IMG/VR virus record: IMGVR_UViG_3300046542_000343
Location: 1-20,591 of that record
DNA: 20,591 nucleotides
Reading direction: 5' to 3' (one strand)
Source of the DNA: a virus
In this document: piece by piece, positions 1,762 to 18,669 of the stretch
How positions within the stretch are numbered: position 1 is the first letter of the stretch
Layout: each line of letters starts with the position of its first letter
Made by a program: the position numbers and the translations under genes
Notes under the pieces: model-generated
What the model was told of the DNA's origin: nothing
Seen by the model: only the letters and a program-made list of their open reading frames with translations
Databases searched by the model: none

Positions 1762-2883
1762 CTAGCTGGACTTCCAGGGGAGGCTCATGTCGATCGCGGA
1801 GATGTCCGGGATCGCCTCCTTGATGTAGATTTCGCTGGTCTTGGCGGTCGTATGCACCAGGCGCTTCTGGATGTCGTGCATCTGCTTGCCCGCCCTGGCC
1901 GCGTCGGTGGCGCCGAGCGCGCGCAGGTCCTTGAACCAGACCGGGTCCGTGATGCCGGCCCGATCGCGCGCGCGAACCCACATGGTGTTCAGCCCGCTCT
2001 TGGTGTAGGGCTGGCCCTTCTGCGTCGGGAACAGGTAGGGCGAGATCACCTCGTAGCCCTTCTTGATGGCGCGGGCCCGGTTGATCACGTCCTGGATCGC
2101 CGGCGTGATCGTGATGTCGACCACCTTGCCGCTCGACTTGCGCGTCTTGCTCGGCTGGATACGGATGTGCCCGCCCTCGATCTGGCTTTCCTTCAGGGTG
2201 CGGATGTCGAGCGCGCGCGCCCACAGCAAATAGGCCATGTCGACCAGGCAGGCGAACATCGGGCCACTCTGGGTCGGCAGCGTCAAGCCGTTGTCGGCGC
2301 GCGGCTTGCTGAACATGCCGGCCGCGCGGATCCGCTGCACCTGGTCATGCGTGGGCAGCACGGTCCGGCGCTCGGTCTCGAAGTCGCTGAGGTCCAGCTG
2401 CTCGATCGGGTTGTCCTCGCGCAGGCCGAGCCGCGAGATCGCGTACTTGAACAGCTTGCGCGCCAGCGCCGCGACCTTCTGCGCGGTGTTCGCCTTGCCG
2501 CGGTAGCGCTCGCTCAGGAAGTCGGCGAATTCCTTGGTGGTCACCTGACCCACGTGGAAGTCTTCGAACTCGTCCGCGATCACGTCCAGGTACTGCTTGT
2601 ACTGGTCCTGCGTTTCCTTGGTGTACTTGCCCAGCTTGTGCTCCTTGAACTCGGCGCACAGGTGCGGCATGCTGCCCTCGACCAGGACTTTGTTGCCCAG
2701 CAGCTCGGACAGCTTCGCGAGCATCACGCTCTCGCCGTCGTCAAGCGAGCATAGCCGGACCCACTTCTTGTACTCGTTGGTCTTGGGCACGCGCATCGGT
2801 TCGGCCGCGACAAAGTAGTAGGCGCCGAACTTCACATACACGCGGCGCGGGAGTCCGCGATTCTTTTTACGCTGCCGATTCAT
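1762..2883 (-). CDS. int: Tyrosine recombinase (phage integrase)
   Basis: This 373-aa protein catalyses site-specific integration and excision. The N-terminal half has a SAM-like core-binding domain, with residues 90-155 resembling KYTKETQDQYKQYLDVIADE. The catalytic part shows Arg223 in LLWARALDIRTL, a beta-hairpin Lys246 in PSKTRKSSGK, Arg321 in KDLRALGATDAA, His344 in LVHTTAKT and the nucleophile Tyr353 in SEIYIK. The box II His (HxLR) is replaced by Lys, a known variation in the family. The start at 2883 is chosen from AAGGAA just upstream and the basic N-terminus MNRQRKKNRGLPRR; the frame stays open to 2976. The gene ends the leftward early operon and overlaps the upstream DUF4224 gene by 4 nt, a common pairing in prophages. 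Confidence 0.93.
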   Translation of the reverse strand: MNRQRKKNRGLPRRVYVKFGAYYFVAAEPMRVPKTNEYKKWVRLCSLDDGESVMLAKLSELLGNKVLVEGSMPHLCAEFKEHKLGKYTKETQDQYKQYLDVIADEFEDFHVGQVTTKEFADFLSERYRGKANTAQKVAALARKLFKYAISRLGLREDNPIEQLDLSDFETERRTVLPTHDQVQRIRAAGMFSKPRADNGLTLPTQSGPMFACLVDMAYLLWARALDIRTLKESQIEGGHIRIQPSKTRKSSGKVVDITITPAIQDVINRARAIKKGYEVISPYLFPTQKGQPYTKSGLNTMWVRARDRAGITDPVWFKDLRALGATDAARAGKQMHDIQKRLVHTTAKTSEIYIKEAIPDISAIDMSLPWKSS

Positions 2884-3107
2884 TTCCTTGCCGATTTCCT
2901 TCTCGGGGTGGCGCCCGTTGCCGGCGCGCCAAGCGTCATCGTACTGGGATTGGTCAGGTGCGCGCGCAGCACACACACCGTATTGTCGATCTTGCGCAGC
3001 TGCGCCGGGATGCCCAGTTCGCGCAGCGCGGCAAGCTGCTTCTTCGGAAGCTTGTAATGCGTGATCTGATAGATCTCGTCGTTAGACAGGGTCAGGTCGT
3101 CCATCAT
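2880..3107 (-). CDS. DUF4224 family phage protein
   Basis: This 75-aa basic protein contains LTLSNDEIYQITHYKLPKKQ and a following stretch on relative Ala/Leu/Arg residues that match DUF4224, a small family almost always encoded next to phage integrases. Its molecular role is not established, and a part in recombination or DNA binding is only suggested by context. Two adjacent ATG codons (3107 and 3104) are possible starts; AGGCGG lies upstream. The C-terminal tail (PRRKSARK) is strongly basic. It overlaps the neighbouring genes on both sides by about 4 nt, so it belongs to the int transcript. Confidence 0.75.
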   Translation of the reverse strand: MMDDLTLSNDEIYQITHYKLPKKQLAALRELGIPAQLRKIDNTVCVLRAHLTNPSTMTLGAPATGATPRRKSARK

Positions 3108-3229: not shown

Positions 3230-3978
3230 GCCGCCGCCCCACTTGCATCGGCCGGGCCGGCTGCGACCGGTTCCACCGCTCCCTTTGTCAGGGCGAGGGC
3301 CTGTTCGGTGAGCTCGACCTGGCCCCGCCAATACTTCCGGCTGTCGTCGGTCGTCGCCTGGGCCTGCATGTGCTTGCAATACCGGAGTTCCTGATAGAGC
3401 CCATGCTCCACCGCGACCCGCTGGCACGCGGAGAAGGTAATGGTCAAGGGGTCGATAGCGGGGTGGGTTGCGGCTCCTGAGCTGCCGGGAGCGCTCGCGC
3501 GGGCGCAGCGCAGCACGCCGATCGCCGCCGGCACTGCCAGCGGCAACTTAGCCGGATCGAGCGCCTCGAGCATCCCGATCGCGATCCTGATGGCGCCCGC
3601 CAGGCCGGCGTCGGTGCAGCCTGCCCTGCATGGCTGGCCAGCTGGTGCACAGCACGCCGGGCAGCAGAACCCGCCGGGGTGTTGCTCCGCAGCGGCTGCG
3701 GCGCGCAGCTCCGCAATCTCGGCCACCATCGCCCGCTCAACATCGGTCGGCACATGGAGTGGGAAACTCTCGTCGGCGCCGATCCGCTCGCGCCAGGTCC
3801 TGATCACCGCTGGCGCACTGGCGGCTGGTGGCGCGGCCCCGGCCATTGCCTCAACCACGTTGATCGCCGCGTTGCGGCCGATGCGCCCGGGCTTGCGGCA
3901 ATCGCACAGCACGGCCGCGCCGGCGCTGATCTGTTTGTCGGTCAGCACGATATTGACTCTCTCGGGGGTAGTAGCCAT
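3226..3978 (-). CDS. Unknown phage protein with Cys-rich centre
   Basis: This protein is about 250 aa and I do not recognise its family. The N-terminal part contains VLTDKQISAGAAVLCDCRKP and INVVEAMAGA. Residues about 105-122 hold a CCPACCAPAGQPCRAGC cluster resembling a metal-binding knuckle. The C-terminal part is helical (YWRGQVELTEQALALTKG). The Ala/Pro-rich stretches between them look like linkers. The start at 3978 is favoured over the ATG at 3984 and 4011 because AAAGGA is then well spaced. It lies between the DGR reverse transcriptase and the small genes before int, on the same strand with short spacing. It may be an ordinary early accessory protein. Confidence 0.6.
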   Translation of the reverse strand: MATTPERVNIVLTDKQISAGAAVLCDCRKPGRIGRNAAINVVEAMAGAAPPAASAPAVIRTWRERIGADESFPLHVPTDVERAMVAEIAELRAAAAAEQHPGGFCCPACCAPAGQPCRAGCTDAGLAGAIRIAIGMLEALDPAKLPLAVPAAIGVLRCARASAPGSSGAATHPAIDPLTITFSACQRVAVEHGLYQELRYCKHMQAQATTDDSRKYWRGQVELTEQALALTKGAVEPVAAGPADASGAAA

Positions 3979-4007
3979 GTTCATTCCTTTCTGTCGCTTT
4001 GGGTTTC

Positions 4008-5204
4008 TCATCGGGTGCCGGTCCTGTAGGCCTTGGTGAAGCTGCGGTTCACCGCATGACCGCGCTGCAGCACCGCCCGCGCCACCTGGGCTCGGTCAGC
4101 GTGGCTGCTGTCCGACTGACACAGCAGGCCGAAGTAGCTGTTGGCCGCCGCGTAGACGTCGCCGGCGTCCATCGTCGCCAGCCGCGAGATCGCCTGGCTG
4201 ACCGTGCGCCGCCGGGCGCGGGTGTGCCAGGGCTTGATCACGTGGCCGACGAAGTCGACGCCGCGCGCCACCGGCTGCAGGATGGTCTTAGTAGGGTTCA
4301 GCCTTGCGCCGAGCGTAGGCAGGAACGCGTCGATGCTCGCCAGCGCGCCGTTCAGCCATTGCGGCGACTCGTGCAGCAGCACGAAGTCGTCGACGTAGCG
4401 CACGTAATGCCGCGCCCGCAGCTGGTGCTTGGCGTGCTGGTCGAGCGCATCAAGGTAGATATTGGCGAAGAACTGGCTCGACAGATTCCCGATCGGCAGG
4501 CCGAGATAGTCGGGCTGGCTGGCCAGGCGCTTGTGCGGCGGTACCAGGTCGACCAGTCGGCGCTTACCGCGCAGTTCGAAGTCCTGGCGCGGGTCGTGGA
4601 ACAGGATCACGCCGGCCAGCCACAGCCACCACGGCTCGGTGACGCGCGCCGCGATCTGGCGCCACAGCACGCGCTTGTCGATCGCCACGAAGAAGTTGGC
4701 GAGGTCGCACTTCAGGTACCACAGCGGGCGGCTCCAGTTCTGGGAAGCGCTGCGGATCTTGTGCTCGAGGCGCTGGGCCGCGTACAGCGTGCCGCGGCCC
4801 GGGATGCAGGCGCAGGTGTCGCTGATGAACGAGCGGTAGAAGCGCGGCGCGATACGGTTGTACAGCAGGTGGTGCACGATGCGGTCTCGGAACTCGGCCG
4901 CCCATACCTCGCGCGGCCTGGGGCGCGTGATGATGAAGCAGATCGAGCGGCCGGGCCGGTAGCTGCCGTCGGCCAGCTCGTCGCGCAGGCGGGCCAGGTT
5001 GCGCTCCTGGTCCTGTTCGAACGCGGCGGCGCTGGCGGAGTTGCGTTTGGTCTTGCGGCAGTCGAGGTAGGCCTGCACCAGCTCCTCGAAAGAAAAATCA
5101 GCATGGAGGCGACCGGGATAATCTGCGGACCGCGCGAGCGCGGAGGCTGGCCGACTTGTTGTTGTTGTTCTGGTTGCCGTTGTTGAAATTCTGATTCCAG
5201 GCAT
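4008..5204 (-). CDS. DGR-type reverse transcriptase
   Basis: This is the reverse transcriptase of a diversity-generating retroelement. It copies the TR transcript with errors at adenines, and the cDNA replaces the VR. Counting from the in-frame ATG at 5204 it has 398 aa. Asp167 lies in KCDLANFF, the DGR-like motif IGNLSSQ is at 238-244, and YVDD is at 270-273. The first recognisable RT residues are FSFEELVQAYLDCRK, around residue 38. The true start is unclear: the ATG at 5204 lies inside TR, a GTG at 5078 would trim the RT0 region, and an ATG at 5104 is out of frame by one base. The frame is open to 5438 but that extension has no coding character. It is transcribed after avd and TR, the standard order. 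Confidence 0.92.
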   Translation of the reverse strand: MPGIRISTTATRTTTTSRPASALARSADYPGRLHADFSFEELVQAYLDCRKTKRNSASAAAFEQDQERNLARLRDELADGSYRPGRSICFIITRPRPREVWAAEFRDRIVHHLLYNRIAPRFYRSFISDTCACIPGRGTLYAAQRLEHKIRSASQNWSRPLWYLKCDLANFFVAIDKRVLWRQIAARVTEPWWLWLAGVILFHDPRQDFELRGKRRLVDLVPPHKRLASQPDYLGLPIGNLSSQFFANIYLDALDQHAKHQLRARHYVRYVDDFVLLHESPQWLNGALASIDAFLPTLGARLNPTKTILQPVARGVDFVGHVIKPWHTRARRRTVSQAISRLATMDAGDVYAAANSYFGLLCQSDSSHADRAQVARAVLQRGHAVNRSFTKAYRTGTR

Positions 5205-5223
5205 AGTCGTCGTTGGCAGCGTG
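5120..5223 (-). repeat. DGR template repeat (TR)
   Basis: This 104-nt repeat lies between avd and the RT domain, on the minus strand. Read in the VR frame it is rich in AAC codons (for example CAGAACAACAACAACAAG), the usual TR composition that lets adenine mutagenesis yield many residues. Its last 38 nt, including SASLRARAVRR-coding sequence and a CCGCG/CGCGG hairpin at 5130-5143, are identical in both VRs. This end is the likely counterpart of the initiation-of-mutagenic-homing region. Similarity to the VRs stops just beyond both ends. Confidence 0.95.
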
Positions 5224-5404
5224 CTGCGTGTATTCGTGCTATCTACATCGCCCCGCCGAAGGCCGCAGCGGCCGATCAGCGGGGAAACTGCGCCAGACCT
5301 GCCCGAACTATGTCGGGTGGTATCTGCGGTGCGCATGGCGGTGGCCTTGTGGGCCAGCGGCACGACCAGATTAAAAGTTCGCACAGTCATGGTGGCCGTG
5401 ACCA

Positions 5405-5758
5405 TCACGAAGCGGGCGACGTTGCGGAGCGGCGCCATCCACTGGCCTGCTTGCCGATGCTGGTGGTCAGCTCGACGGCGCGGGCGTACTGCTTGACGGT
5501 GATCAGGCGCTTGTCGCGCGAGAGCCGCAGCAGCAGTTCCGCCACCTGCAGGCGCTCGGTGAGCCCCTGCAGGTGAGGTGCCTTCTCCCGCGCCGTGTTG
5601 GCGCGGAAGATCAAGATCGTGACTGCGACCACCTCGTCACGGAGCTTCCCGCCGATCGATGCCTTGAAATCCCTGGGCATGTTCTTGGCGAGGTCTGTGA
5701 CGACGTCGAGGAGGTCGTAGGCGGCCTTGTAGATCGGCAGTTGGGTGTGGAGTGCCAT
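5405..5758 (-). CDS. avd: Avd-like DGR accessory protein (four-helix bundle)
   Basis: This 117-aa, almost wholly helical protein is the accessory variability determinant. Avd proteins form a barrel-like pentamer of four-helix bundles that binds the RT and TR RNA and is needed for mutagenic copying. Recognisable segments are LPIYKAAYDLLDVVTDLAKN, IGGKLRDEVVAVTILIFRAN and LQVAELLLRLSRDKRLI. The last is basic and amphipathic. It follows the VR1 gene with a 14-nt gap and precedes TR, the classic VR-avd-TR-RT order. The ribosome binding site is weak, which suggests translation coupled to the upstream gene. The family call is strengthened by context. Confidence 0.88.
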   Translation of the reverse strand: MALHTQLPIYKAAYDLLDVVTDLAKNMPRDFKASIGGKLRDEVVAVTILIFRANTAREKAPHLQGLTERLQVAELLLRLSRDKRLITVKQYARAVELTTSIGKQASGWRRSATSPAS

Positions 5759-5772
5759 GCTGATAAAAAGCG

Positions 5773-6204
5773 TTAAATTACTGAATAATTAATCTGCGGA
5801 CCGCGCGAGCGCGGAGGCTGGCCGACTTGTCGTAGTTGACCTGGAATGCCGTCGTCGAAAACCTGAGTCCAGGCATAGTCGACGAGGGCAGCGTGCTGCT
5901 CGCTCGACCAGTACCAGCGCGGCTTGAATTCGCGCTGCAGGTTGGCGTAAAGCAGCGCCTGCTCGCGGCGCGTCGGCAGCTCGCCGCCCGCCTTCACCGC
6001 GAAGGCTTTTGCGGCTTCCCAGGTCACTTCTTCCGCCTCGCCTGGCAACAGCACCAGGTGATGATCGGGTTGGCCGTCCTGTCCAAGGATCAGGCCGGCG
6101 TACAGCTCGCCCGCCTTGAGGTTCTCCGCGATCCATTGCGCCTTGCTGGCTACCATTCCGGCGACGCGGCCGCCTGGCTGCTGCAGTTCTTGTGCTTTCT
6201 TCAT
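5773..6204 (-). CDS. DGR variable protein 2 (VR1), frameshifted C-terminus
   Basis: This DUF1566/Lcl-like C-type-lectin-fold target protein is 143 aa. It contains ELPTRREQALLYANLQ, then RWYWSSEQHAALVDYAW at the start of the variable region. An extra T on the plus strand at 5847, relative to TR and VR2, shifts the frame. The end therefore reads RQVGQPPRSRGPQINYSVI where KSASLRARAVRR is expected. Restoring the frame gives GFQVNYDKSASLRARAVRR and a stop soon after. AGGAG precedes the ATG at 6204. No signal peptide is seen. The protein is a shorter paralogue of the gene upstream. The shift could be a real DGR by-product or a sequencing error. Confidence 0.85.
   Translation of the reverse strand: MKKAQELQQPGGRVAGMVASKAQWIAENLKAGELYAGLILGQDGQPDHHLVLLPGEAEEVTWEAAKAFAVKAGGELPTRREQALLYANLQREFKPRWYWSSEQHAALVDYAWTQVFDDGIPGQLRQVGQPPRSRGPQINYSVI
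5791..5895 (-). repeat. DGR variable repeat VR1
   Basis: VR1 is 105 nt, one longer than TR. Hand alignment gives 14 substitutions, all at TR adenines, for example AAC to CTC, GAC to GTC, AAT to GTT and AAC to TTC. The only other difference is the 1-nt insertion at 5847. The 3' part (5791-5828 on the plus strand) is identical to TR. It lies at the 3' end of the second target gene. Confidence 0.95.
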
Positions 6205-6233
6205 GATCAGTTACTCCTGAAATGGATGAAGGG

Positions 6234-6848
6234 TTAAATGGGCAATCTGCGGACCGCGCGAGCGCGGAGGCTGGCCGACTTGAGGTTGCTGACCTGGAAG
6301 CCGAAGTCGAAACCCTGAATCCAGGCATAGTCGTCGCCGGCAGCGTGATGCGTGCTCGACCAGTACCACTCGTCTTCGAACGCCTGCTCCCCGCCCTCGG
6401 TGAAGGCTGGCGCCATGGTCTGCGCCGGCACCTCTCGGCTGTAAGCGAAGGTCGGCGGTACCGCCGAAACGTTCACGCCCGAGCGGCCGTACAGGGAATT
6501 GGTCTCGGCGGTCGGCTTCAGGTTGCGGTAGAGGATCTCCAGCTCGTCCTGGCTCGGGATGTGCCAATCGGTGAAGCCGTTGATGTTCAGCCCGCGAGCC
6601 CATTGCCCCAGCTCGCTTCCAGCTTCGGCCATCGCGACCGTGTTCTGCATGCCGTCGCAGTAGCTGTCGGCCCCGGCCACGCGCTGCTCGGATTCGAGCC
6701 AGGCGCCCTGGCGCTCGCCCTCAGCCTTCGGTGCGACGATCAGCGCGTGCAGCACGCCGGCGATCATTATCTGGCCGGCGTAAAACCCGCCGCCGAAAGG
6801 GGTTCCCGGAATAGCGGGAACGATAGGGGTCTTCTCTTGGGTATTCAT
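6234..6848 (-). CDS. DGR variable protein 1 (VR2), DUF1566-like
   Basis: This 204-aa protein is the intact DGR target. The N-terminal region (PFGGGFYAGQIMIAGVLHAL) is typical of DUF1566/Lcl-like phage proteins. The centre has FTDWHIPSQDELEILYRNLK, and the lectin-fold end carries WYWSSTHHAAGDDYAW followed by the variable residues and the conserved KSASLRARAVRRLPI. Diversified residues would line a ligand-binding face. There is no signal peptide or membrane segment, so whether it sits on virions, the host surface or in the cytoplasm cannot be told. AAGGA lies upstream of the ATG at 6848. It follows the methyltransferase after a 61-nt C-rich, G-poor gap. Confidence 0.92.
   Translation of the reverse strand: MNTQEKTPIVPAIPGTPFGGGFYAGQIMIAGVLHALIVAPKAEGERQGAWLESEQRVAGADSYCDGMQNTVAMAEAGSELGQWARGLNINGFTDWHIPSQDELEILYRNLKPTAETNSLYGRSGVNVSAVPPTFAYSREVPAQTMAPAFTEGGEQAFEDEWYWSSTHHAAGDDYAWIQGFDFGFQVSNLKSASLRARAVRRLPI
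6244..6347 (-). repeat. DGR variable repeat VR2
   Basis: VR2 is 104 nt, the same length as TR. Hand alignment gives 15 substitutions, every one at a TR adenine, for example AAC to GGC, AAT to GGT, AAC to TTC and AAC to CTC. Non-adenine positions are unchanged from CACGCTGCC to the end at GCAGATT. The frame is preserved. This is direct evidence that TR-templated adenine mutagenesis has acted here. Confidence 0.96.
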
Positions 6849-6909
6849 GGTTTTCCTTGTTGTGGTTGGTGGGACTACTGGGTGTTGCTGGGTGAGTTTG
6901 ACTTTGTGT

Positions 6910-7830
6910 TTACGCCGCCTCCCGGAGCGCGTTGATGACGTCGCGCGCAGCCGGCGGGCAAACAGAATTTCCGAGCATGTGCACGGCGTCCTTGTGCGTT
7001 TTGGGAAGGATGTAGTCAGACGGGAAGCCCATCGCCGCGCGACACTCCTGAGTGGTCAGCATGCGAGTGAGATCACCATCCACTACGCCCCAGCGGTCAC
7101 GCGTCGTGATCGTGCCCAGCGGGCGACTCAGGCAGCGGCCGGTCAGCCCTGAGCCGCCTCCGTAGTACGGCATGACGAAGCGCTCACCATGCGCGCGGCG
7201 CCCAGCCTGGACCCGGCGAAGCGTTGCCGCAGCGCGCCCCGGCCTATCGATCTGCGACCATTTGCCGGAGTTGAAGTCAATAATGTCGCGGGCCGGCACG
7301 TACTTACGCTTCGGCAGATTGATCATTAGCGGGTGTTTCGCCCGCACCGCGACGATGAACAGGCGCTCGCGGTGCTGCGGCACGCCGTGGTCTGCGGCGT
7401 CGACGATCATCGGCGTCAGCGCATAGCCCAGCGCATCCATTGCCGCGCACCAGGCCGGGTACAGTGCCCAGCGCGTGAACTCGGGCACGTTCTCGATCAC
7501 AGCAAAGGCCGGTCGGTGATACTCGGCGGCAGACACCACTGCCCAAGCAGTCGAGCGGCTGGCGTCGTGCTGTGGGTTGCCGTTGGCCTTGCCGCGCGCC
7601 TTGCTATGACCCTGGCAGCATGGCGACGCGAGCAGGATGTCGTGCCTGGGCACATCCTGCCACCGCGCCTGGTGCAGGTCCTGGCATGCATGCTCGACAT
7701 TCGGGTGGTTGGCGGCGTGAATCTCCACGGCGCTCTGCCAGTGGTTGGCAGCCCACACGACGTCGATGCCGGCCATCCTGGCGCCAGTGCTGAACCCACC
7801 GGCGCCGGCAAACAGATCGATCGCCCTCAC
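6910..7830 (-). CDS. C5-cytosine DNA methyltransferase
   Basis: This 306-aa enzyme transfers a methyl group from S-adenosylmethionine to C5 of cytosine. Motif I is DLFAGAGGFS (5-14). Motif IV is ASPCCQGHS, where alignment on QGxS makes Cys72 the catalytic residue and the usual second Pro is Cys. Motif VI is VIENVPEF, motif VIII is QHRERLF, and motif X is LGNSVCPPAA. The segment between VIII and IX (GERFVMPYYGGGSGLTG) is short, so target recognition may be compact. A GTG start at 7830 overlaps the upstream stop in GTGA. No restriction endonuclease partner is visible, so this is an orphan phage methyltransferase that may protect DNA from host restriction or regulate genes. Confidence 0.93.
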   Translation of the reverse strand: MRAIDLFAGAGGFSTGARMAGIDVVWAANHWQSAVEIHAANHPNVEHACQDLHQARWQDVPRHDILLASPCCQGHSKARGKANGNPQHDASRSTAWAVVSAAEYHRPAFAVIENVPEFTRWALYPAWCAAMDALGYALTPMIVDAADHGVPQHRERLFIVAVRAKHPLMINLPKRKYVPARDIIDFNSGKWSQIDRPGRAAATLRRVQAGRRAHGERFVMPYYGGGSGLTGRCLSRPLGTITTRDRWGVVDGDLTRMLTTQECRAAMGFPSDYILPKTHKDAVHMLGNSVCPPAARDVINALREAA

Positions 7831-8267
7831 GCCCCTGCTCCCCGCGCCAGCCCAAACATCGCCGCGACCATCGGATCACGCTGCATGCCCATCTGGCGCG
7901 CCGGAACCACCGTGCGCTTCACGTCGCTCTCGTCATCGCCCAGCGGCGTCGCGCCCTTGCTCGCCAGCGCTGGGTCCGCGCCCAGGCGCCAGAGCACAAC
8001 CGAGAAGCCCGGGCGCTCCTGGTACTGGCGAATCTCACGCTCTTCAAGGTGCAGATGGCGCAGGTAGCTCGCGACCAGCTCGGGCCGCAGTTCGAGCTTG
8101 GCGGCAATGGCCGCGGTGCTCGCCGGCCCAGCCAGCAGGATCTTGAGAATCTTCGGCGCGTAGTGCTCGCGCTGGTCGCACGCGGACACCTTGCGCAGCA
8201 TGCAGTCGGAGATGCCGCGGCATGGCCGGTCGCAAGTCTTGCCGCCGCAGTGTTTGGTGGTTGCCAT
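7827..8267 (-). CDS. Winged-helix-like protein with Cys-rich N-terminus
   Basis: This 146-aa protein has a Cys-rich N-terminus (C7, C12, C16, C22 and C30, in HCGGKTCDRPCRGISDC), which could bind metal. A helix-turn-helix-like region follows at about 36-82 (KILKILLAGPASTAAIAAKL, then SYLRHLHLEEREIRQY). The layout suggests a small DNA-binding regulator, but the family is not recognised. AGGGAA precedes the ATG at 8267. The gene overlaps the methyltransferase start by 4 nt, so the two are translationally coupled and may work together. Confidence 0.65.
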   Translation of the reverse strand: MATTKHCGGKTCDRPCRGISDCMLRKVSACDQREHYAPKILKILLAGPASTAAIAAKLELRPELVASYLRHLHLEEREIRQYQERPGFSVVLWRLGADPALASKGATPLGDDESDVKRTVVPARQMGMQRDPMVAAMFGLARGAGA

Positions 8268-8302
8268 TTTTGTTCCCTGGTGGTCTCGTTGTTGTTCTCG
8301 GT

Positions 8303-8893
8303 CTACAGCGGATCGACCGGGTGCGCTTCTGCTGTGACGGCAAGGGCGCGCAGTTCCTGCGCCACCGCTTCGGCGTCGAACTGGGCCATAAATTCATGTT
8401 CCTTGGCCCAGATGCCGTGCTCGCGCTCGTACGCCACCGAATGGTCGACGTCCCAGCCGGCTAGGATGATGCGTGCGACCACCGAGGTGATGGAGTGGAG
8501 CATGTGGTAGATCGGCTCCGGTAGCTGCGCGCTGAACTGGTCGGCGATCGCCTTCGATGCGGTGGCGACCGTCGTCAGCCTGGGCAGCCAGGCGCGCAAC
8601 AGCGGCGCCATGCCCGGCTCGAGCTCCAGCGTGAACCCGGTGCGCAGGATCGGTGCGTAGGGGTCGGCCGCAAAGCACTCCAGGCGCGTGTCGTGCACCT
8701 CGATCCCGTCCGGGGCAAAGTAGGGGCGGTCCTCGCCGGACAGCCGGCACGGGCCGTCGAAGCCGGTGAGCGCGGGCAGCCCGATCACCGTCACGCTGAT
8801 CGTTCCATCGGGGTGCGGGTGCAGCCGCAGGGCGATGCGCTGCCCGGCCAGATGCACGCCGTCCAGGTCGCGACTAGCCGTTGGGAAGAGCAT
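8303..8893 (-). CDS. Unknown early phage protein
   Basis: This 196-aa protein is not recognised. It has a beta-rich N-terminal half (IALRLHPHPDGTISVTVIGL, then FTLELEPGMAPLLRAWLPRL) and a helical C-terminal half (PIYHMLHSITSVVARIILAG) ending in acidic and alanine-rich helices. The start at 8893 is preferred over 8926 because GAGG is about 8 nt upstream. It overlaps the 3' end of the preceding small gene by 20 nt, as is usual in packed leftward phage operons. It is the second gene downstream of PL. Confidence 0.6.
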   Translation of the reverse strand: MLFPTASRDLDGVHLAGQRIALRLHPHPDGTISVTVIGLPALTGFDGPCRLSGEDRPYFAPDGIEVHDTRLECFAADPYAPILRTGFTLELEPGMAPLLRAWLPRLTTVATASKAIADQFSAQLPEPIYHMLHSITSVVARIILAGWDVDHSVAYEREHGIWAKEHEFMAQFDAEAVAQELRALAVTAEAHPVDPL

Positions 8894-9044
8894 GGCTCGC
8901 CTCGGCGCAGGTGACGGTGATCCCACACGGCTGGTCGCCGAGCAGCTCGGCTGTCAGCATCGCGGCGTCGCCGCTCGAGCGCGCCAACGCGCTGAAGGTG
9001 ATGCAGAGGGTCGCGGTTCGCGCCGTGATGAGAAAGGGTCGCAT
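8874..9044 (-). CDS. 56-aa first gene of the leftward operon
   Basis: This short frame encodes 56 aa, beginning MRPFLITARTATLCITFSAL and containing TAELLGDQPCGITVTCAEAS. The pattern looks like a small protein seen in proteobacterial phages, but I assign no function. GGAGA lies about 9 nt upstream of the ATG at 9044. It is the first gene after PL, about 50 nt from the promoter, the position lambda uses for N. However, it is not arginine-rich and does not look like an N-type antiterminator. It is easily missed because of its length. Confidence 0.6.
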   Translation of the reverse strand: MRPFLITARTATLCITFSALARSSGDAAMLTAELLGDQPCGITVTCAEASHALPNG

Positions 9045-9088
9045 CTGAGTCTCCGGTCTGCGGCTCGGCGGGTGCTGAGCTCGCTAAT

Positions 9089-9127
9089 TTGCATATTACG
9101 CATATTAAAAATATGCGTCAAGCGCAA
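9089..9127 (-). promoter_or_regulatory. PL promoter with two operators (OL)
   Basis: On the minus strand a -35 TTGACG (9121-9116) and -10 TAATAT (9098-9093) are 17 nt apart. Two 15-bp sites fit the consensus ATGCGT-nnn-ACGCAT: TTGCATATTACGCAT at 9089-9103, covering the -10, and ATGCGTCAAGCGCAA at 9113-9127, covering the -35. The inner half-sites make a perfect 9-bp inverted repeat at 9098-9118. Repressor bound here would block the leftward operon. Confidence 0.8.
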
Positions 9128-9176
9128 ACTATGAAATTTCCCGAAGCGATCGATGCCATGGGGGATCGATTGGGTG

Positions 9177-9200
9177 AAAAAAAACCCGCTTGAAGGCGGG
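9177..9200 (-). terminator. Rho-independent terminator of the repressor operon
   Basis: Read on the minus strand, a stem CCCGC/GCGGG closes on a 6-nt loop and is followed by eight T residues. It lies about 40 nt past the stop of the gene co-transcribed with the repressor, so it would end the lysogenic transcript before PL. Confidence 0.85.
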
Positions 9201-9242
9201 GCTGGATGCGGGTGGGGGGGGGTGTGGCCGGCCTGACCTGCG

Positions 9243-9680
9243 CTAGGTCACTTTAATGGCAATGTACACGAGGAGCCAAATAACGGTCCAAAGCAAAGTT
9301 CGATTTCGAGCGGTAGCCTTCAGAAGTACGCTGGTGGCTTCCAGGGTTGTGCGCTCAAGGACGTGAAGTCGATCAAGCCGCTCGAGTAGCGATAACTGCG
9401 TTCGCGTCACCGTATCAATATCCTCACGACTCAAGCATGCCGCTTTGATCCCTTGCCTGACACTCAGTTGGCGGGCGCCGTGGTCGTCTATATATGGTCG
9501 GATTCCGTGCTTCTTGGCGGAGCGGCGGGCCTCGAGGGCAGCTCCGTAAAACTCCTTGCGTGCGGGGCTTTCTTCCATTCGCTGGAGCATCTCCGATTCA
9601 AAATCAGCTTCCTCGGCTCGTAGTTTGCTCAGTCCATAGGCGTACGTGTTCTCCCACAAGTACCGTTCCGATTCGGTCAT
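9243..9680 (-). CDS. Membrane-anchored protein co-transcribed with the repressor
   Basis: This 145-aa protein is not recognised. It is helical and charged over residues 1-125 (EADFESEMLQRMEES, LSLLERLDRLHVLERTTLEA). It ends in one transmembrane helix (LLWTVIWLLVYIAIKVT), so it looks tail-anchored with the bulk in the cytoplasm. Its ATG overlaps the repressor stop in ATGA and a strong terminator follows. It should therefore be made together with the repressor in the lysogen, the usual place for superinfection-exclusion or lysogenic-conversion genes. That role is inferred from position and topology only. Confidence 0.75.
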   Translation of the reverse strand: MTESERYLWENTYAYGLSKLRAEEADFESEMLQRMEESPARKEFYGAALEARRSAKKHGIRPYIDDHGARQLSVRQGIKAACLSREDIDTVTRTQLSLLERLDRLHVLERTTLEATSVLLKATARNRTLLWTVIWLLVYIAIKVT

Positions 9681-10393
9681 ATCCGATCACTTTCTTTTCG
9701 AACAACTCGCCCTATGATTAAGCAAGCGTCGCCCTGGCATATTTTCCGGTGGTACTTGCGCTGATCAACATTATCTGAGGTGAGCCACCACTGACCGGCG
9801 TCGCGTGAGAGGCGCTTCACCACTGCCTCCCCTTCGTAGTTGACCGCAAAGACGACTCCGTCCACAGGCTTCATGTCGGCCGTATTGATGACGACAGTGT
9901 CGCCTTCATGAAGGGTGGGCTCCATGCTCTCCCCGCGTACTTTTATCGCGATCAGATTGCGGAGATTAAACCGGTTTTTGTCCACCCACTCCCGACTGAC
10001 GGGAGTAGTGCGCCCCTCGTCATATTCCGGGTCGACCTGTATCCCCATGATTCCGGCCGAAAGCCGTGGTTTTACGAGCGGAACTTGAACAAAACGGTCA
10101 TCACTATCGTGGGGGATGTGTACGGCCCGGAAATCATACCCCTCTCGTAAAGTCACTCCGCGCGCCACCAGTTCGGCAATCGCCTCTGCTTCGGTTTCAC
10201 TCCCCACGAAAAGCGCTCCCACTGGGACCTCCAGCGCAGCGGCAATCTTTTCCAAGGTGGCTTCGGTATAACCCTGGACACCACGTTCCAGACGAGAGAG
10301 GTTGCCCACATCGCTCTCAATCATCGTTGCGAGCTGGTTGAGTGTGTAGCGGCGCGCCTTGCGCAGTATGCGAATTGTCTTTCCGATGGCCAT
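9677..10393 (-). CDS. cI: CI-like repressor, HTH plus S24 (LexA-type) peptidase
   Basis: This 238-aa protein maintains lysogeny and should be inactivated by RecA-stimulated self-cleavage. Residues 5-60 form an XRE helix-turn-helix (RRYTLNQLATMIESDVGNLS). The S24 domain has the nucleophile Ser156 in VRGESMEPTL and the general base Lys193 in EAVVKRL. A plausible cleavage bond is Ala113-Gly114 in RLSAGIMG. The start at 10393 gives the normal family length. It faces a Cro-like gene across an intergenic region with three operator-like sites, and the same sites recur at PL. Confidence 0.95.
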   Translation of the reverse strand: MAIGKTIRILRKARRYTLNQLATMIESDVGNLSRLERGVQGYTEATLEKIAAALEVPVGALFVGSETEAEAIAELVARGVTLREGYDFRAVHIPHDSDDRFVQVPLVKPRLSAGIMGIQVDPEYDEGRTTPVSREWVDKNRFNLRNLIAIKVRGESMEPTLHEGDTVVINTADMKPVDGVVFAVNYEGEAVVKRLSRDAGQWWLTSDNVDQRKYHRKICQGDACLIIGRVVRKESDRI

Positions 10394-10413
10394 TCTTCTA
10401 TCGTGACTTTTTA

Positions 10414-10476
10414 ATGCGACATACGCAAAGCGTGTTGCGCATATTTTTCACGCGCGTTATTATGCGTACTACGCAA
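10414..10476 (+). promoter_or_regulatory. PR promoter with three operators (OR)
   Basis: A rightward promoter has -35 TTGCGC (10435-10440) and -10 TATTAT (10458-10463), 17 nt apart. Three 15-bp sites fit ATGCGT-nnn-ACGCAT: ATGCGACATACGCAA at 10414-10428 (near the repressor), AAGCGTGTTGCGCAT at 10428-10442 (over the -35) and ATGCGTACTACGCAA at 10462-10476 (over the -10). This parallels lambda OR3, OR2 and OR1. No convincing PRM hexamers could be picked. Confidence 0.8.
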
Positions 10477-10495
10477 ACATTCCACGAGTAAACCG

Positions 10496-10723
10496 ATGAA
10501 AACACCACTTCGTCTCGCCCGGGAGGCCAAGGCGCAAACCCTCAGTGAGGTTAGCCGCGCAGTCGGTACCGACCCAGGAAACCTTTCCCGTATCGAGAGT
10601 GGTAAACAACGGGCCTCCACCGAACTGGCGGAACGACTCGCAAAGCATTTCGAAGGCGTTCTCACTGAACTCCAGATTTTGTATCCCGAGAGGTTTGCCC
10701 CTGCTGATTCCTTGCGGCGATAA
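10496..10723 (+). CDS. cro: Cro-like XRE transcriptional regulator
   Basis: This 75-aa protein is a minimal XRE helix-turn-helix (residues 4-55, with QTLSEVSRAVGTDPGNLSRI as the recognition unit) and no peptidase domain. It diverges from the S24 repressor across the OR region and is the first gene of the rightward transcript, so it should act as Cro, turning down repressor and early transcription. Its recognition-helix sequence DPGNLSRIESG resembles the repressor's DVGNLSRLERG, consistent with both reading the same sites. The ribosome binding site is weak (GAGTAAACCG). Confidence 0.9.
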   Translation: MKTPLRLAREAKAQTLSEVSRAVGTDPGNLSRIESGKQRASTELAERLAKHFEGVLTELQILYPERFAPADSLRR

Positions 10724-10842
10724 GGCCGAGGGGTCCACAGCTTTTGTGCCCAAAAAGTTTCCATCAGGCAGTTGACCACGGTCGATTTCCCAGCTCCACC
10801 CACCCCGATGTCCTGAACCACCGCACCACTAGGAGAAAAACC

Positions 10843-11106
10843 ATGACCACCACCCCGAACCCGAAGCGCGAGAAGCAGCTGAAGGTGCCGCTGAACGACA
10901 ACGAGGATGCCGCGCTCCGCAAGTTCTGCACCAGCATCGGCCGCCACGTCGCGCCGTTCGTCCGCGATCTCGCCTTCGCCCACATCCGCGCCGAGGTGAA
11001 TCGTACCGCTGGGAAACGGAAAAGCGAATGGCCACGCCATGGCCATATGCAGCGCTTTCCGGGCCGGGCCGCTGTCGCTGGGGGCCTCAAGCGCCTGCAC
11101 CTTTAA
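10843..11106 (+). CDS. Small basic, possibly ribbon-helix-helix-like protein
   Basis: This 87-aa protein has a basic N-terminus and a core (KVPLNDNEDAALRKFCTSIG) with the strand-helix-helix look of ribbon-helix-helix or MobC-like proteins. The start at 10843 follows AGGAG; the longer frame upstream to 10744 has no coding signal. It lies where lambda carries cII, after cro, but it does not resemble CII. DNA binding is a guess from the pattern. Confidence 0.6.
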   Translation: MTTTPNPKREKQLKVPLNDNEDAALRKFCTSIGRHVAPFVRDLAFAHIRAEVNRTAGKRKSEWPRHGHMQRFPGRAAVAGGLKRLHL

Positions 11107-11169
11107 GGGTGGGGATTTCAGGCTGCGCGCGCAGCGCAGCGCAGAGCATCAAGTAACGAAGGGAGGTTC

Positions 11170-11388
11170 ATGACACATCAGGAGGAACGGCGAGCGACGC
11201 CGGACGAGAAGGTCGTCCACCGGGCCAAGGCCTGGCGCGATCGCGACAAGGCAGCCACTGCCAACCGCTGCGACGACACGAGACGGGCCGAGTACTTCGC
11301 GCGGCAGCAGCTGCGCGAAGCGGTCGACATGCTCGAGAAAAAAACAGCGCCGGCTGACGTGGCGCACAACAAACCAAGGGGGGATTGA
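11170..11388 (+). CDS. Small charged phage protein
   Basis: This 72-aa highly charged, probably helical protein is not recognised (AWRDRDKAATANRCDDTRRA, then QQLREAVDMLEKKTA). GGGAGG is well placed upstream of the ATG. Its stop is directly followed by the next ATG, so it sits in a run of small early genes typical of a phage rightward operon. Confidence 0.6.
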   Translation: MTHQEERRATPDEKVVHRAKAWRDRDKAATANRCDDTRRAEYFARQQLREAVDMLEKKTAPADVAHNKPRGD

Positions 11389-11589
11389 ATGGATGAACCG
11401 ATCATCTCGCGCGAGGCGATCCGCGCAAAGGCACGGCGCGATTTCCAACGCGGCGCCGGCCGTGACGAACACGGCATGAATCCTGGCGCGGCCGCAATCG
11501 CGGAATGGCAAGGCGAGTGGGATCGCCAGTACGCCGAGTGGACCCAGCGTTCCCGCGTGCGCGGGAACCAGGCGCTGGAGGCCGCGTGA
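11389..11589 (+). CDS. Small hypothetical phage protein
   Basis: This 66-aa protein is rich in Arg, Glu and Trp (EWQGEWDRQYAEWTQRSRVR) and probably helical. The ATG immediately follows the stop of the previous gene, with AAGGGGGG upstream. Its stop overlaps the next ATG by one base (TGATG). No family is recognised. Confidence 0.6.
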   Translation: MDEPIISREAIRAKARRDFQRGAGRDEHGMNPGAAAIAEWQGEWDRQYAEWTQRSRVRGNQALEAA

Positions 11590-11801
11590 TGGAACACCCT
11601 ACCGACTGCCTCTGCCCGGAAGTTTGCGCGCCGATTTCGCTGCCGACACGTTCCCCCAGCCTGAACGATGCGCTCGCTAAAAAGAACGGTTTTGACGTAG
11701 CTCAAGCTGTCACGTTGCTCGTCGGCCTCAAGCCGTACGCGCAACAGGTGGCCATTGCCCACCTGCGCGCGCTGAGCGGCCTGCAACGAAAGCTGAGGTA
11801 G
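11589..11801 (+). CDS. Small hypothetical phage protein
   Basis: This 70-aa protein has a Cys-containing start (MEHPTDCLCPEVCAPIS) and a helical C-terminus (AQAVTLLVGLKPYAQQVAIA). The start at 11589 is chosen because it couples to the stop of the upstream gene in TGATG. An upstream in-frame ATG at 11505 lies well inside that gene. The function is unknown. Confidence 0.55.
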   Translation: MEHPTDCLCPEVCAPISLPTRSPSLNDALAKKNGFDVAQAVTLLVGLKPYAQQVAIAHLRALSGLQRKLR

Positions 11802-11803
11802 GC

Positions 11804-12001
11804 ATGGACAGCACCAACTGGACCCCGATCGCCGCCCGGCTTCCCGATGCCGACACTCTGGTGCTGATCGCGTTCTCCGATCTCGAGGTGTGGACCGGCT
11901 ACCTCGACGGGGATATCTGGCGTGACGTGAGCGCGATGTCGCTCGAGCCGGGCTTCGTAACCCATTGGATGGACCTGCCGCCGCACCCGGGCGCGGCCTG
12001 A
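11804..12001 (+). CDS. DUF551 domain protein
   Basis: This 65-aa protein matches DUF551 along its whole length, with WTPIAARLPDADTLVLIAFS at the start, WTGYLDGDIWRDVSAM in the middle and VTHWMDLPPHP at the end. DUF551 proteins are common in phage early regions and have no settled function. It starts 2 nt after the previous stop. Confidence 0.8.
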   Translation: MDSTNWTPIAARLPDADTLVLIAFSDLEVWTGYLDGDIWRDVSAMSLEPGFVTHWMDLPPHPGAA

Positions 12002-12057
12002 GCTAGACATTTCGCGCGCGAGCGCATAACCGCAGTACCAAAACGAAGGGAATACCC

Positions 12058-12747
12058 ATGCGATTCATCGGAACCAAGACCGTCATTGCCGAAGCCATGA
12101 CCCGTGCGGCTTACAACGCATTCCGCGGCTGGACGCTGCCTGCCGACGAGAATGGCGCGGACGCAGGCTACCTGGTCGAGTACCAGGACGGCGGCAAGCC
12201 GAACGTGCCGGGCCGCGAGGGCTACGTCAGCTGGTCGCCGAAAGAACAGTTCGACAACGCCTACCGCCCGTGCACGGCGATGACGTTCGGATTGGCGATC
12301 GAGGCGCTCAAGCGCGGCCACCGCGTCGCACGCGCCGGCTGGAACGGCAAGGGCATGTTTGTCTACCTGGTCCCGGCGAACACCTACCCGGCGCAGACCG
12401 GCGCGGCGAAGGCATTCTTCGGTGAGGGCGCGCTGGTGCCGTACAACGCGTACATGGCGCTCAAGGGCGTCGACGGCAGGGTAAGCACCTGGGTTCCGAG
12501 CGTGACCGACACCTTGGCCGAAGACTGGCAGATCGTCGAGACCGTCGCGTCGTCCATCCCGCCGCACCAGCAGCGCGTCATCGACGAGAAGGCCGAACTG
12601 GACGAGAAGCGCACGAAGCTGAAAGCGTTCTTCGACACGCCGATCTTCGCTGGCCTCGACCCCAACGAGCAGGACCGGCTGTGCGCGCAGTCCGAAGCGA
12701 TGGGCAATTACTCCGACATCCTTAGCCAGCGCATCGCGGCCTTCTAG
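12058..12747 (+). CDS. Three-part phage protein with a Tad2 (DUF2829) domain
   Basis: This 229-aa protein appears to be a fusion. Residues 1-73 are a phage module (LPADENGADAGYLVEYQDGG, GYVSWSPKEQFDNAYRP). Residues 75-162 match Tad2/DUF2829 (MTFGLAIEALKRGHRVARAG, then YMALKGVDGRVSTWVPS and DTLAEDWQIV). Residues 169-229 are a helical tail (PHQQRVIDEKAELDEKRTKL, AMGNYSDILSQRIAAF) resembling the crAss001_48-related family. Tad2 proteins bind the cyclic ADP-ribose-type signal of Thoeris defence and so block it. AAGGGA precedes the ATG. The Tad2 assignment is by motif pattern. Anti-Thoeris activity of this fusion is inference. Confidence 0.8.
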   Translation: MRFIGTKTVIAEAMTRAAYNAFRGWTLPADENGADAGYLVEYQDGGKPNVPGREGYVSWSPKEQFDNAYRPCTAMTFGLAIEALKRGHRVARAGWNGKGMFVYLVPANTYPAQTGAAKAFFGEGALVPYNAYMALKGVDGRVSTWVPSVTDTLAEDWQIVETVASSIPPHQQRVIDEKAELDEKRTKLKAFFDTPIFAGLDPNEQDRLCAQSEAMGNYSDILSQRIAAF

Positions 12748-12912
12748 CCCATTCAGCCCCGCAGGCGGCGCGGGCCGGCGAGAGCCGGGGACATACCCAA
12801 CCGAAGCTGAAGGGTGCCGCCCAGCGAACCAATGGGAGCGAGCGCGCCAACGCCGCTGCACCGCGCGCCAGTGACCATGCAGGCGCATCACAACAACGAC
12901 AAGGAGAACGAC

Positions 12913-13326
12913 ATGCGATCACTGACTTTCGCCGCACTGAGGGAGGCCAACACGTTGCGCCTGCCGCAGTTCAAAAACCCGCACGGCCAGCTCGCGCACA
13001 GCAAACCGGATGGCTCGGACTGGAGCCCCGCGCAGTGGCTGCAGGCCGTGATGGGCGAGCTGGGCGAATACGCGAACGTTCGTAAGAAGTTTGAGCGTGG
13101 CGACCTGACCGCGGAGCAGTTCGAAGTGCTGGCCACCAAGGAGCTGGCCGACGTGCAGACCTACCTCGACATCCTCGCGCGGCGTTGCCTCGATGTGACG
13201 GGAACTGCGCACCCGGTCGGCGTCGACCTGGGGCTGGCGACGCTCGCGAAGTTTAACGAAGTGTCCGAGCGCGTGGGCGCCGACGTGTTCATCGACAACT
13301 ACGGCGGGGTGTACCAGACCGTGTGA
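12913..13326 (+). CDS. MazG-like nucleotide pyrophosphohydrolase
   Basis: This 137-aa protein is an all-alpha NTP pyrophosphohydrolase of the MazG-like type. The metal-binding motif shows as Glu49-x-x-Glu52 (MGELGEYAN) and Glu77-x-x-Asp80 (KELADVQTYLDILARR). Such enzymes hydrolyse (d)NTPs to monophosphates, and phage versions may tune nucleotide pools or stress signals. The ATG at 12913 follows AAGGAG; earlier in-frame ATGs lie in non-coding sequence. The gene stands apart from its neighbours, with 165 nt upstream holding no gene I can support. Confidence 0.85.
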   Translation: MRSLTFAALREANTLRLPQFKNPHGQLAHSKPDGSDWSPAQWLQAVMGELGEYANVRKKFERGDLTAEQFEVLATKELADVQTYLDILARRCLDVTGTAHPVGVDLGLATLAKFNEVSERVGADVFIDNYGGVYQTV

Positions 13327-13381
13327 ATCGGGCCGCGCCCGGTCCGCCGGGAGCAACCGCCAAAACTAAAAACAGGGAGTA

Positions 13382-13645
13382 ATGATGTTTCGAAAGTCAC
13401 TGACAGCATTGATCGGCATGACGCTCGCATTGGGCGCCGGCGCAGGTTTCACCCAGACCGCGCCGACGGTTCGGATGGAGGCGCCACGCACCAGCACCCC
13501 GCGCCGCCAGCTGCGCGGCACCGCCACGAAGCGCATGCTCTACGGCGCCAAGGGAGTCGGCATCACCGCCGCCCAGCAGCAGCGCGCGGCCAACAAGGCG
13601 CGCAACGTGCGCCGCCACAAAACCCACGTGCGGGGCCGGAAATGA
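13382..13645 (+). CDS. Small secreted basic protein
   Basis: This 87-aa (or 86-aa) protein has an N-terminal signal peptide (KSLTALIGMTLALGAGAGFT). The rest is very basic and low in complexity (RRQLRGTATKRMLYGAKGVG, then RNVRRHKTHVRGRK). Two adjacent ATG codons are available; GGGAG is better spaced for 13385. It overlaps the next gene by 4 nt. No family is recognised. Confidence 0.55.
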   Translation: MMFRKSLTALIGMTLALGAGAGFTQTAPTVRMEAPRTSTPRRQLRGTATKRMLYGAKGVGITAAQQQRAANKARNVRRHKTHVRGRK

Positions 13646-14226
13646 CGGACGACCTCTACCTGGCCGAGCGTCCGGATCCGGCGCAACTGGCGGTCGCCAA
13701 GGCCGACATCCTCGCCTTCCGCGAGCAACACCTCACGCTGGGCCCTGCCGCGCTGGCGAGCGCCTTCATCGCGCGCCGCGGCAGCGCGACCTCGGCCGAG
13801 CTGAGCATCCTGCTGGACCTCGGCCCGGATCGCTACCCGTCCGTGGAGCTGCGCAGCTCGGTCCAGGGCGAGCGCCTGGTGTGCAAGGACCGCGTCTGGA
13901 CGCTGGGGCCGAAGGCATCCCTGGAAAAGCGGGAACCGGCCGTGCAGACTGACGCGCTGGCGTCCGGCGCTGAGCTGGGCAAGCAGGACACGAAGCCTCT
14001 GGTGGAGGTCCCGCGCTTTGCCGAGAAGCAGGCCGGCCAGCCGCCGCAGAACCGCAGCCAGGTGCTCATCAAGCCCGAGCCAGCCGCCCCCGCCAAGCCG
14101 CCACGCTGCCGTTTCGCGGTCTGGTCCGATGGCCATGTCGAGATCAAGCCCGCGGGATTGCCGTCGCTCGAGCTGTCGCGTGAGGAGTTCGAGGCCCTGG
14201 TGGATTTCGTGCGGGACTGGTCGTGA
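13642..14226 (+). CDS. Hypothetical phage protein with Pro-rich linker
   Basis: This 194-aa protein is not recognised. An N-terminal helical part (LAVAKADILAFREQHLTLGP) is followed by a basic segment (GERLVCKDRVWTLGPKASLE), a Pro/Ala/Lys-rich linker and a compact C-terminal unit (RFAVWSDGHVEIKPAGLPSL, then SREEFEALVDFVRDW). The start overlaps the preceding stop by 4 nt. It lies in the rightward early operon. Confidence 0.6.
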   Translation: MTDDLYLAERPDPAQLAVAKADILAFREQHLTLGPAALASAFIARRGSATSAELSILLDLGPDRYPSVELRSSVQGERLVCKDRVWTLGPKASLEKREPAVQTDALASGAELGKQDTKPLVEVPRFAEKQAGQPPQNRSQVLIKPEPAAPAKPPRCRFAVWSDGHVEIKPAGLPSLELSREEFEALVDFVRDWS

Positions 14227-14276
14227 ACGCGCTCGCCCCCGCCCACTCGCTAACCAACCTGCAGGAGTAGACAACC

Positions 14277-14642
14277 ATGGGTGCATTTTGTGTGTTTGGC
14301 GTCAGCAAGGGTGTCTGCCGTGGCATCGCGAACCGCAAGGTGGCGGCTTCCGAGCGCGACAGCGACGGCAAGGAGCTCTTCCTGACCCAGGCGGAATGGG
14401 CGGCCCGGCGCGACGCCCATGCGGCGCAGCTGTTCGAGCAGTCGACGCGCCCGGTCAAGGTCAGCCCCGAATTCGACGCGCCGCAGTTCTGCCACGACTG
14501 GCTGGCGGTCAGCCCGGGCGAAGTGAAGCTGGCGCGGCTGATGGTGCGCGGCCCGAAGATCGACAAGAACGGCAACGCGGTCGTGAGGGGGGGGGCGCCT
14601 GTGCTCACCTGGGTCGAGTACGTGCCACCGCGCGCACGCTGA
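14277..14642 (+). CDS. Hypothetical phage protein
   Basis: This 121-aa protein begins MGAFCVFGVSKGVCRGIANR and contains LFLTQAEWAARRDAHAAQLF and VSPGEVKLARLMVRGPKID. It looks like a recurring phage early protein of unknown role. GCAGGAG precedes the ATG. A run of nine G at 14587-14595 lies near the 3' end, where a base-count error would change the last 15 or so residues, but the frame as given reads plausibly to the stop. Confidence 0.6.
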   Translation: MGAFCVFGVSKGVCRGIANRKVAASERDSDGKELFLTQAEWAARRDAHAAQLFEQSTRPVKVSPEFDAPQFCHDWLAVSPGEVKLARLMVRGPKIDKNGNAVVRGGAPVLTWVEYVPPRAR

Positions 14643-14686
14643 CCTGGCTCGGCTGAGCATCCACCACCGCATTTCAGAGCATACCA

Positions 14687-14998
14687 ATGGAAAAAATCTA
14701 TATCGCCGGTCCCATGACCGGCCTGCCCGAATTGAACTTCCCCGCGTTCCATGCTGCCGCGGCGGTCCTGCGCGAGCGCGGCCACACCGTCATCAACCCC
14801 GCCGAGATCAACCTCGATGTCGGCGCCGACTGGGCCGACTGCATGCGCGCCGACATCGCCCAGCTGGTCACGTGCGACAGCATCTGCCTGCTACCAGGCT
14901 GGGAGAAGTCGCGCGGCGCCACGCTCGAGCACCACATCGCAGCTGCGCTCGGGTTCGAGGTGCAGTTTGCACCGGCACAGGAGGCGGCCAGTGCGTGA
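14687..14998 (+). CDS. DUF4406 (nucleoside deoxyribosyltransferase-like) protein
   Basis: This 103-aa protein has the DUF4406 start MEKIYIAGPMTGLPELNFPA, followed by RERGHTVINPAEI and LLPGWEKSRGATLEHHIAAA. The fold is related to nucleoside 2-deoxyribosyltransferases and the GPMTG loop would contact nucleoside or phosphate, though enzyme activity for the family is uncertain. Its 3' end overlaps the replication protein start by 8 nt. Together with the MazG-like gene it suggests nucleotide metabolism in this operon. Confidence 0.85.
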   Translation: MEKIYIAGPMTGLPELNFPAFHAAAAVLRERGHTVINPAEINLDVGADWADCMRADIAQLVTCDSICLLPGWEKSRGATLEHHIAAALGFEVQFAPAQEAASA

Positions 14999-18561: not shown

Positions 18562-18619
18562 TTGCATTTCCGAGTCTCCTCCAGCGCTACCAGGCGATGG
18601 ACTTCGCCCGCCAGGTGCC

Positions 18620-18639
18620 AAGCCTGTGCGGGCTTTTTT
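18620..18639 (+). terminator. Second terminator-like hairpin before terminase
   Basis: A 5-bp stem AAGCC/GGCTT with a 6-nt loop runs into a T stretch, giving TTTTTTA overall. The short stem makes it a weaker terminator. With the hairpin at 18532 it forms a two-hairpin block about 30 nt before the terminase start. Confidence 0.5.
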
Positions 18640-18669
18640 ATTCGTAGTCTCAGCCGAAAGGGGGTAAGC

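Follow-up and report, generated by a model that had tools for sequence, protein, structure and literature searches.

Sequence evidence for a complete and recently active diversity-generating retroelement in the early arm of a temperate phage

We analyzed IMG/VR virus record IMGVR_UViG_3300046542_000343 over its full length (20,591 nt, positions 1 to 20,591; hereafter the window) and found on its minus strand a diversity-generating retroelement (DGR), comprising a reverse transcriptase (RT), a template repeat (TR), an Avd accessory protein, and two target genes with variable repeats (VR1 and VR2). This DGR is very probably complete and recently active. Its activity is strongly supported by comparison with a close relative, since the VRs of the two genomes diverge at TR adenines while RT and TR are identical. 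The DGR belongs to a temperate phage, whose host is probably in the Oxalobacteraceae or other Burkholderiales.

Parts and recent activity of the retroelement

Open reading frames (ORFs), repeats, and family scans placed the whole cassette on one strand in the order target 1, target 2, avd, TR, and RT, as an initial annotation of this DNA had proposed, and returned the same limits for both VRs:

6234-6848, minus strand: target 1 (204 aa), a free-standing Lcl_C (DUF1566) C-type-lectin-like protein with C-terminal VR1; Pfam Lcl_C, E 1.2e-11
6244-6347, minus strand: VR1; TR/VR alignment
5773-6204, minus strand: target 2 (143 aa as read), a second Lcl_C-fold protein with its C terminus frameshifted here; VR2 insertion
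5791-5895, minus strand: VR2, with one extra base at ~5847; TR/VR alignment
5405-5758, minus strand: Avd accessory protein; Pfam bAvd, E 1.7e-12; PHROG "Avd protein of DGR," E 7.5e-34
5227-5421, minus strand: RT-15 structured RNA, immediately 5' of TR; Rfam RF03018
about 5120-5223, minus strand: TR, with ten AAC/AAT codons in the target frame; repeat families
4008-5108, minus strand: RT domain; RVT_1, E 2e-17; PHROG reverse transcriptase, E 6e-118

The RT bears the DGR-type motifs PIGNLSSQ and YVDD, corresponding to the SQ motif and the YxDD motif. Alignment confirmed that every VR substitution falls on a TR adenine, with 15 substitutions in VR1 and 13-14 in VR2, the latter count depending on the placement of an insertion. 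The counts first reported (14 and 15, respectively) need correction, and the VR2 insertion had been overlooked. One G>T at 6348 lies immediately outside VR1. The 3' block that is identical across the repeats was also recovered, at about 39 nt rather than the 38 nt first given. The VR2 insertion is a single nucleotide at ~5847 (GGCA-ACCAG in TR versus GGCATTCCAG in VR2), and it shifts the C terminus of target 2 to ...GQLRQVGQPPRSRGPQINYSVI, compared with ...NKSASLRARAVRRLIIQ in the nearly identical phage L007/L087. Because VR2 is frameshifted here, the window copy does not hold two intact targets; the earlier description of two paralogous lectin-fold targets is otherwise supported.

The window was compared with L087 (IMG/VR contig 3300046648_000176), which was assembled separately from the window and is 99.2% identical to positions 3558-14847 over 11.3 kb. 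The two sequences differ at 97 places: 34 lie in or beside the VRs, two mosaic patches account for 57, and 6 are elsewhere. TR is identical in both, and the RT domain is without a single difference. Of the 18 VR1 differences, 17 are on TR adenines; VR2 differs by 15 substitutions, all on TR adenines, in addition to the insertion. Considering both VRs together, 32 of 33 substitutions are on TR adenines (Fisher p about 4e-19). Adenine-specific VR variation in near relatives had been proposed as a check on this DGR, and this is the variation that we found. The mosaic patches (3580-3778 and 8459-9018) show dense differences amid near-identical sequence and probably reflect recombination.

Relatives, genomic setting, and expression

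Scans recovered related RTs from 80 viral loci and from 36 loci in bacterial genomes, which include Janthinobacterium, Herminiimonas, Cupriavidus, Paraburkholderia, Caballeronia, Pandoraea, and Pseudomonas. Of 116 distinct relatives, 113-115 have DGR motifs in the RT. TR, Avd, and VRs are found repeatedly among them, and 109 loci keep the cassette, usually with two VRs. For the 111 loci with enough upstream sequence, a count that includes loci from overlapping contigs, we observed two VRs in 85, three in 17, one in 8, and four in 1. Furthermore, 97.9% of the 2785 mismatches in 221 distinct VR/TR pairs from the 109 loci fall on TR adenines, and 39.7% of A sites are changed in these pairs versus 0.37% of non-A sites. 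Full-length TR matches in 10 whole records (nine viral records and one bacterial genome of 5.2 Mb) were TR itself and two VRs only; the bacterial genome gave one extra TR match of 31 nt on another contig. A VR in a structural gene elsewhere was ruled out, as no such VR occurs in other genes of these 10 records. In L085, the contig that carries the DGR also has a second RT-like stretch (11259-12014, minus strand), which is 32% identical to the RT of the window. Pseudomonas phage Medea1 (L004) carries at 7301-8609 two DUF1566 proteins and a decayed repeat pair with no RT nearby; either these are targets that outlasted the loss of a DGR, or the DGR is located elsewhere.

The initial annotation had placed the cassette between a methyltransferase gene and int, downstream of a leftward promoter (PL). 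Family matches verified both neighbors, and PL is probable by consensus:

6910-7830, minus strand: C5 cytosine DNA methylase, upstream operon neighbor; PF00145, E 1.2e-46
1762-2976, minus strand: tyrosine integrase, at the end of the leftward operon; PF00589, E 2.4e-14
9677-10393, minus strand: CI-like repressor; PHROG transcriptional repressor, E 3.5e-39
9093-9121, minus strand: putative PL of the leftward operon; TTGACG-17-TAATAT, consensus match only
9200-9185, minus strand: terminator-like stem; sequence prediction
9090-9102, no strand assigned: CI-operator-like 13-mer over the PL -10; motif TGCGTANTACGCA, up to 2 mismatches
10415-10427 and 10463-10475, no strand assigned: two operator-like 13-mers between cI and cro; motif TGCGTANTACGCA

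This setting had been described as unusual for the phage, a view that the relatives do not support. In 26 diverse relatives, 108 proteins are encoded after RT, 10 of them integrases and 5 DNA methylases; of the 110 encoded before the targets, 10 are CI-like repressors and several are RecE-type exonucleases. No tail family occurs among the 25 commonest neighbor families on the RT side of these relatives, and the target side has one virion structural family, with 3 weak matches. The DGR has a similar place in the cultured phages Cruim01, LPPA56, Magia, Haboob, and Shewanella QDWS. For Magia, the existing record labels two lectin-fold proteins as possible DGR targets and also notes an Avd-like protein. 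Because early and lysogeny flanks are the rule in these relatives and cultured phages, placement in the early arm is a trait of this RT family rather than a peculiarity of the window phage, and it is unusual only relative to the tail-fiber DGRs of the literature.

Within the window, neither promoter-like nor terminator-like sites are more numerous than in shuffles. The motif TGCGTANTACGCA has three matches with at most 2 mismatches, one at the putative PL and two between cI and cro; 5 of 100 shuffles reach three matches at any position. The places of these sites, which weigh more than their number, suggest that they are CI operators.

Several other features of the phage were observed. At the left edge (187-1722), the minus strand encodes type VI secretion system (T6SS)-type proteins: Hcp (1123-1722; PF05638), a Rap1a-like immunity protein (701-1393), and a Tae4 amidase (210-737). 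A tRNA-3'-end-like attachment (att) site lies beyond them at 16-74. Because these genes lie between the integrase gene and the att-like site, they look like phage-borne cargo; host DNA is a less likely source, given the att-like tRNA end beyond them. On the plus strand, 12058-12747 encodes a Tad2-like (Thoeris anti-defense) domain (PF11195, E 2.8e-25) with a crAss001_48-related C terminus, and 16642-17688 encodes a second tyrosine recombinase (PF00589, E 4e-18), also found in relatives L092 and L093. A weak Rfam match to a Betaproteobacteria toxic small RNA (18573-18641, plus strand) scored 31.7 bits, under the 50-bit cutoff.

The RT-15 RNA, the template repeat, and the start of the reverse transcriptase

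The RT-15 RNA scored 185 bits with the Rfam covariance model (RF03018), for which the gathering cutoff is 82 bits. Its location is shared by 10 of 11 relatives tested, it also occurs in L129, and RNAalifold supported several covarying helices within it. Downstream, a gap of about 11 nt separates the end of TR from the RT domain. Across 107 loci, the RT frame stays open over 200 nt or more upstream in 96, compared with 3 and 1 for the other two frames, and in 93 the stretch from TR to the RT domain contains no start codon. An ATG within RT-15 is in the RT frame in 52 of 61 motif matches, and the Magia RT is annotated from the ATG matching it. Candidate RT start codons in the window are at 5336 (within RT-15) and 5204 (within TR). 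Since no start codon follows TR in most loci, the RT start probably lies in RT-15 or TR, in which case the ORF would run through TR, and TR is probably translated in most relatives.

The stretch from the RT-15 ATG through TR was considered as protein coding and rejected: its frame is open, yet codon-position variation indicates otherwise, with third-position variability weakly raised in close relatives and not in distant ones. Because this third-position excess is weak or absent, RT-15 and TR are, as judged from codon positions, conserved mainly as RNA and not as protein. The same analysis gave no indication of extra constraint at the RT 5' end, where codons are without reduced synonymous variation. 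We also rejected a long-range pairing proposed by RNAalifold between UCUGGU in RT-15 and ACCAGA in TR, as the RT-15 bases are unchanged where TR is without the partner. A structured spacer between TR and RT, of the type found in Bordetella phage BPP-1, was not observed in the ~11-nt gap, nor was excess third-position conservation at the RT 5' end.

Target proteins, their possible role, and comparison with known systems

AlphaFold2 modeled target 1 with a predicted local distance difference test score (pLDDT) of 86.8 and a predicted template modeling score (pTM) of 0.86, and its best PDB fold match is the C-terminal domain of Legionella Lcl (8q4e, E 2e-4). The intact target 2 of L007 was modeled with a pLDDT of 89.8 and matches 8q4e at E 8e-5, so that the structure search suggested for the DUF1566 targets found both to resemble the same domain. 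The VR is C-terminal in a C-type-lectin-fold protein for target 1 of the window and, through the intact L007/L087 allele, for target 2. Viral fold matches of target 1 include short free-standing proteins and tail-fiber proteins. A strongly hydrophobic N terminus was seen in neither target, in keeping with the earlier statement that they have no signal peptide. PADLOC gave no match for Avd or the targets, and the targets were thus rejected as recognized anti-phage defense proteins; for RT, its best match was the general RT model, with DRT models weaker. With ten AAC/AAT and five other mutable codons, TR has a capacity of about 6e14 protein variants.

These findings support a model in which TR would serve as the template, its adenine positions would be randomized, and the mutated copy would replace VR1 or VR2 at the C termini of two paralogous small lectin-fold proteins, with the fixed 3' block of about 39 nt as the likely homing site. 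By analogy with known DGRs, RT and Avd would make cDNA from an RT-15/TR transcript, and retrohoming would install this cDNA in the VRs. The predicted sites suggest leftward transcription of the operon from a PL that CI can repress, and diversification and target synthesis would therefore occur early after infection or on induction, and not alongside expression of the tail genes.

We tentatively propose that the two signal-less early proteins may act as variable ligand binders inside the infected or newly lysogenized cell, with host or rival-phage proteins as conceivable ligands. This role assignment is the weakest part of our explanation. A broader proposal, which we regard as speculative and rather improbable, is that proteobacterial temperate phages carry a separate DGR design, in which RT-15 located 5' of TR recruits RT and Avd, an RT start within RT-15 or TR makes one transcript both mRNA and template, CI controls expression, early cytoplasmic binders are diversified, and VR indels act as reversible off-switches.

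Several points weigh against the explanation given here. One of the 33 VR differences between the window and L087 (6348) is off TR adenines, and activity was deduced from natural variation between two assemblies. A hairpin 3' of either VR, a feature of BPP-1-type DGRs, did not exceed chance (DNA folding z-scores of 0.03 and -0.24), and the promoter and operators rest on consensus matches. In addition, the target fold also forms phage tail-fiber tips, and target homologues in phage PMBT3 are near lysis, peptidoglycan hydrolase, and lysozyme genes.

The last two observations bear on a doubtful alternative in which the DGR is real and the targets are virion or cell-surface adhesins that are made early, join tails or the envelope, and alter adsorption as in BPP-1. 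Fold searches also found the target 1 domain in tail-fiber, collagen-repeat, and S74-peptidase proteins, and in clades 1, 4, and 6 most viral DGR targets are predicted tail proteins (PMC8144416). However, the window targets are free-standing, with no fiber domain, anchor domain, or secretion signal, the cassette lies between repressor and integrase genes family-wide with tail genes not among the common neighbors, and a third VR was absent from other genes of the 10 whole records.

Indels occur in about 7 of the 221 VR/TR pairs, all in the variable core, and comprise four frameshifts (the window, L010, L018, and L120) and three of +3. DGR indels in multiples of three within AAC repeats have been described (PMC12875486); VR indels of other lengths could be errors. 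We consider it unlikely that the VR2 insertion is an error of assembly rather than biology. A single contig carries it and the close relative L087 does not, but the site is outside any homopolymer run, the same A-rich stretch has +1, -1, +4, and +3 indels at six other loci, and the multiples of three described in AAC repeats provide a precedent. A later homing event could overwrite the frameshift of the window copy. That the DGR is a decayed relic, with old VR/TR differences and a VR2 frameshift marking loss of function, is highly improbable: target 2 is frameshifted through VR2 in the window and Medea1 retains its DUF1566 pair with no RT found near it, but 33 VR differences separate two genomes with identical RT and TR, RT and Avd are intact in the window and across the RT family, and L087 is without the frameshift.

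In bacteria and phages, programmed hypervariation of proteins is known mainly from DGRs, and those viral DGRs whose role is known act on tail proteins. Early, free-standing, signal-less targets across a large phage family point to another use of hypervariation, possibly an intracellular one, and the presence of the cassette in cultured phages makes this question experimentally accessible. How cDNA synthesis is primed when no spacer lies 3' of TR is a further question, prompted by where RT-15 is located and by the in-frame TR.

Among known systems, the nearest solved fold for both targets is the C-terminal domain of Legionella pneumophila Lcl (8q4e). Lcl is a surface collagen-like adhesin and is not known as a DGR target. 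Cellular clade 5 DGRs of Thiohalocapsa PB-PSB1 likewise vary lectin-fold targets, some of them predicted to be cytoplasmic (PMC10907252), but those targets are fused or linked to NACHT/MoxR defense modules, none of which was recognized for the window targets. TR overlapping an annotated RT ORF is a known class, DiGReF group 3 (PMC3521204), which shares with the window a TR within the open RT frame; in the window family, the overlap is kept in frame and starts inside RT-15 in most loci. The prototype, BPP-1, shares RT, Avd, TR, a C-terminal VR in a C-type-lectin-fold target, and adenine mutagenesis. In contrast to BPP-1, where the DGR acts on a tail protein and the structured spacer follows TR on its 3' side (PMC12875486), the window has its structured RNA 5' of TR, TR ends ~11 nt before the RT domain, and the neighbors are early and lysogeny genes rather than the structural genes found beside tail-fiber DGRs of this type. 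Burkholderia phage Magia (MT701587) shares an RT that is 66% identical and annotated from the corresponding ATG, Avd, lectin-fold targets, and a DGR located between repressor/RecT genes and the integrase gene; it differs in having three VR-bearing genes rather than two and in host and gene content. The window DGR is a known kind of system, ordinary in its parts, with targets set apart from tail genes.

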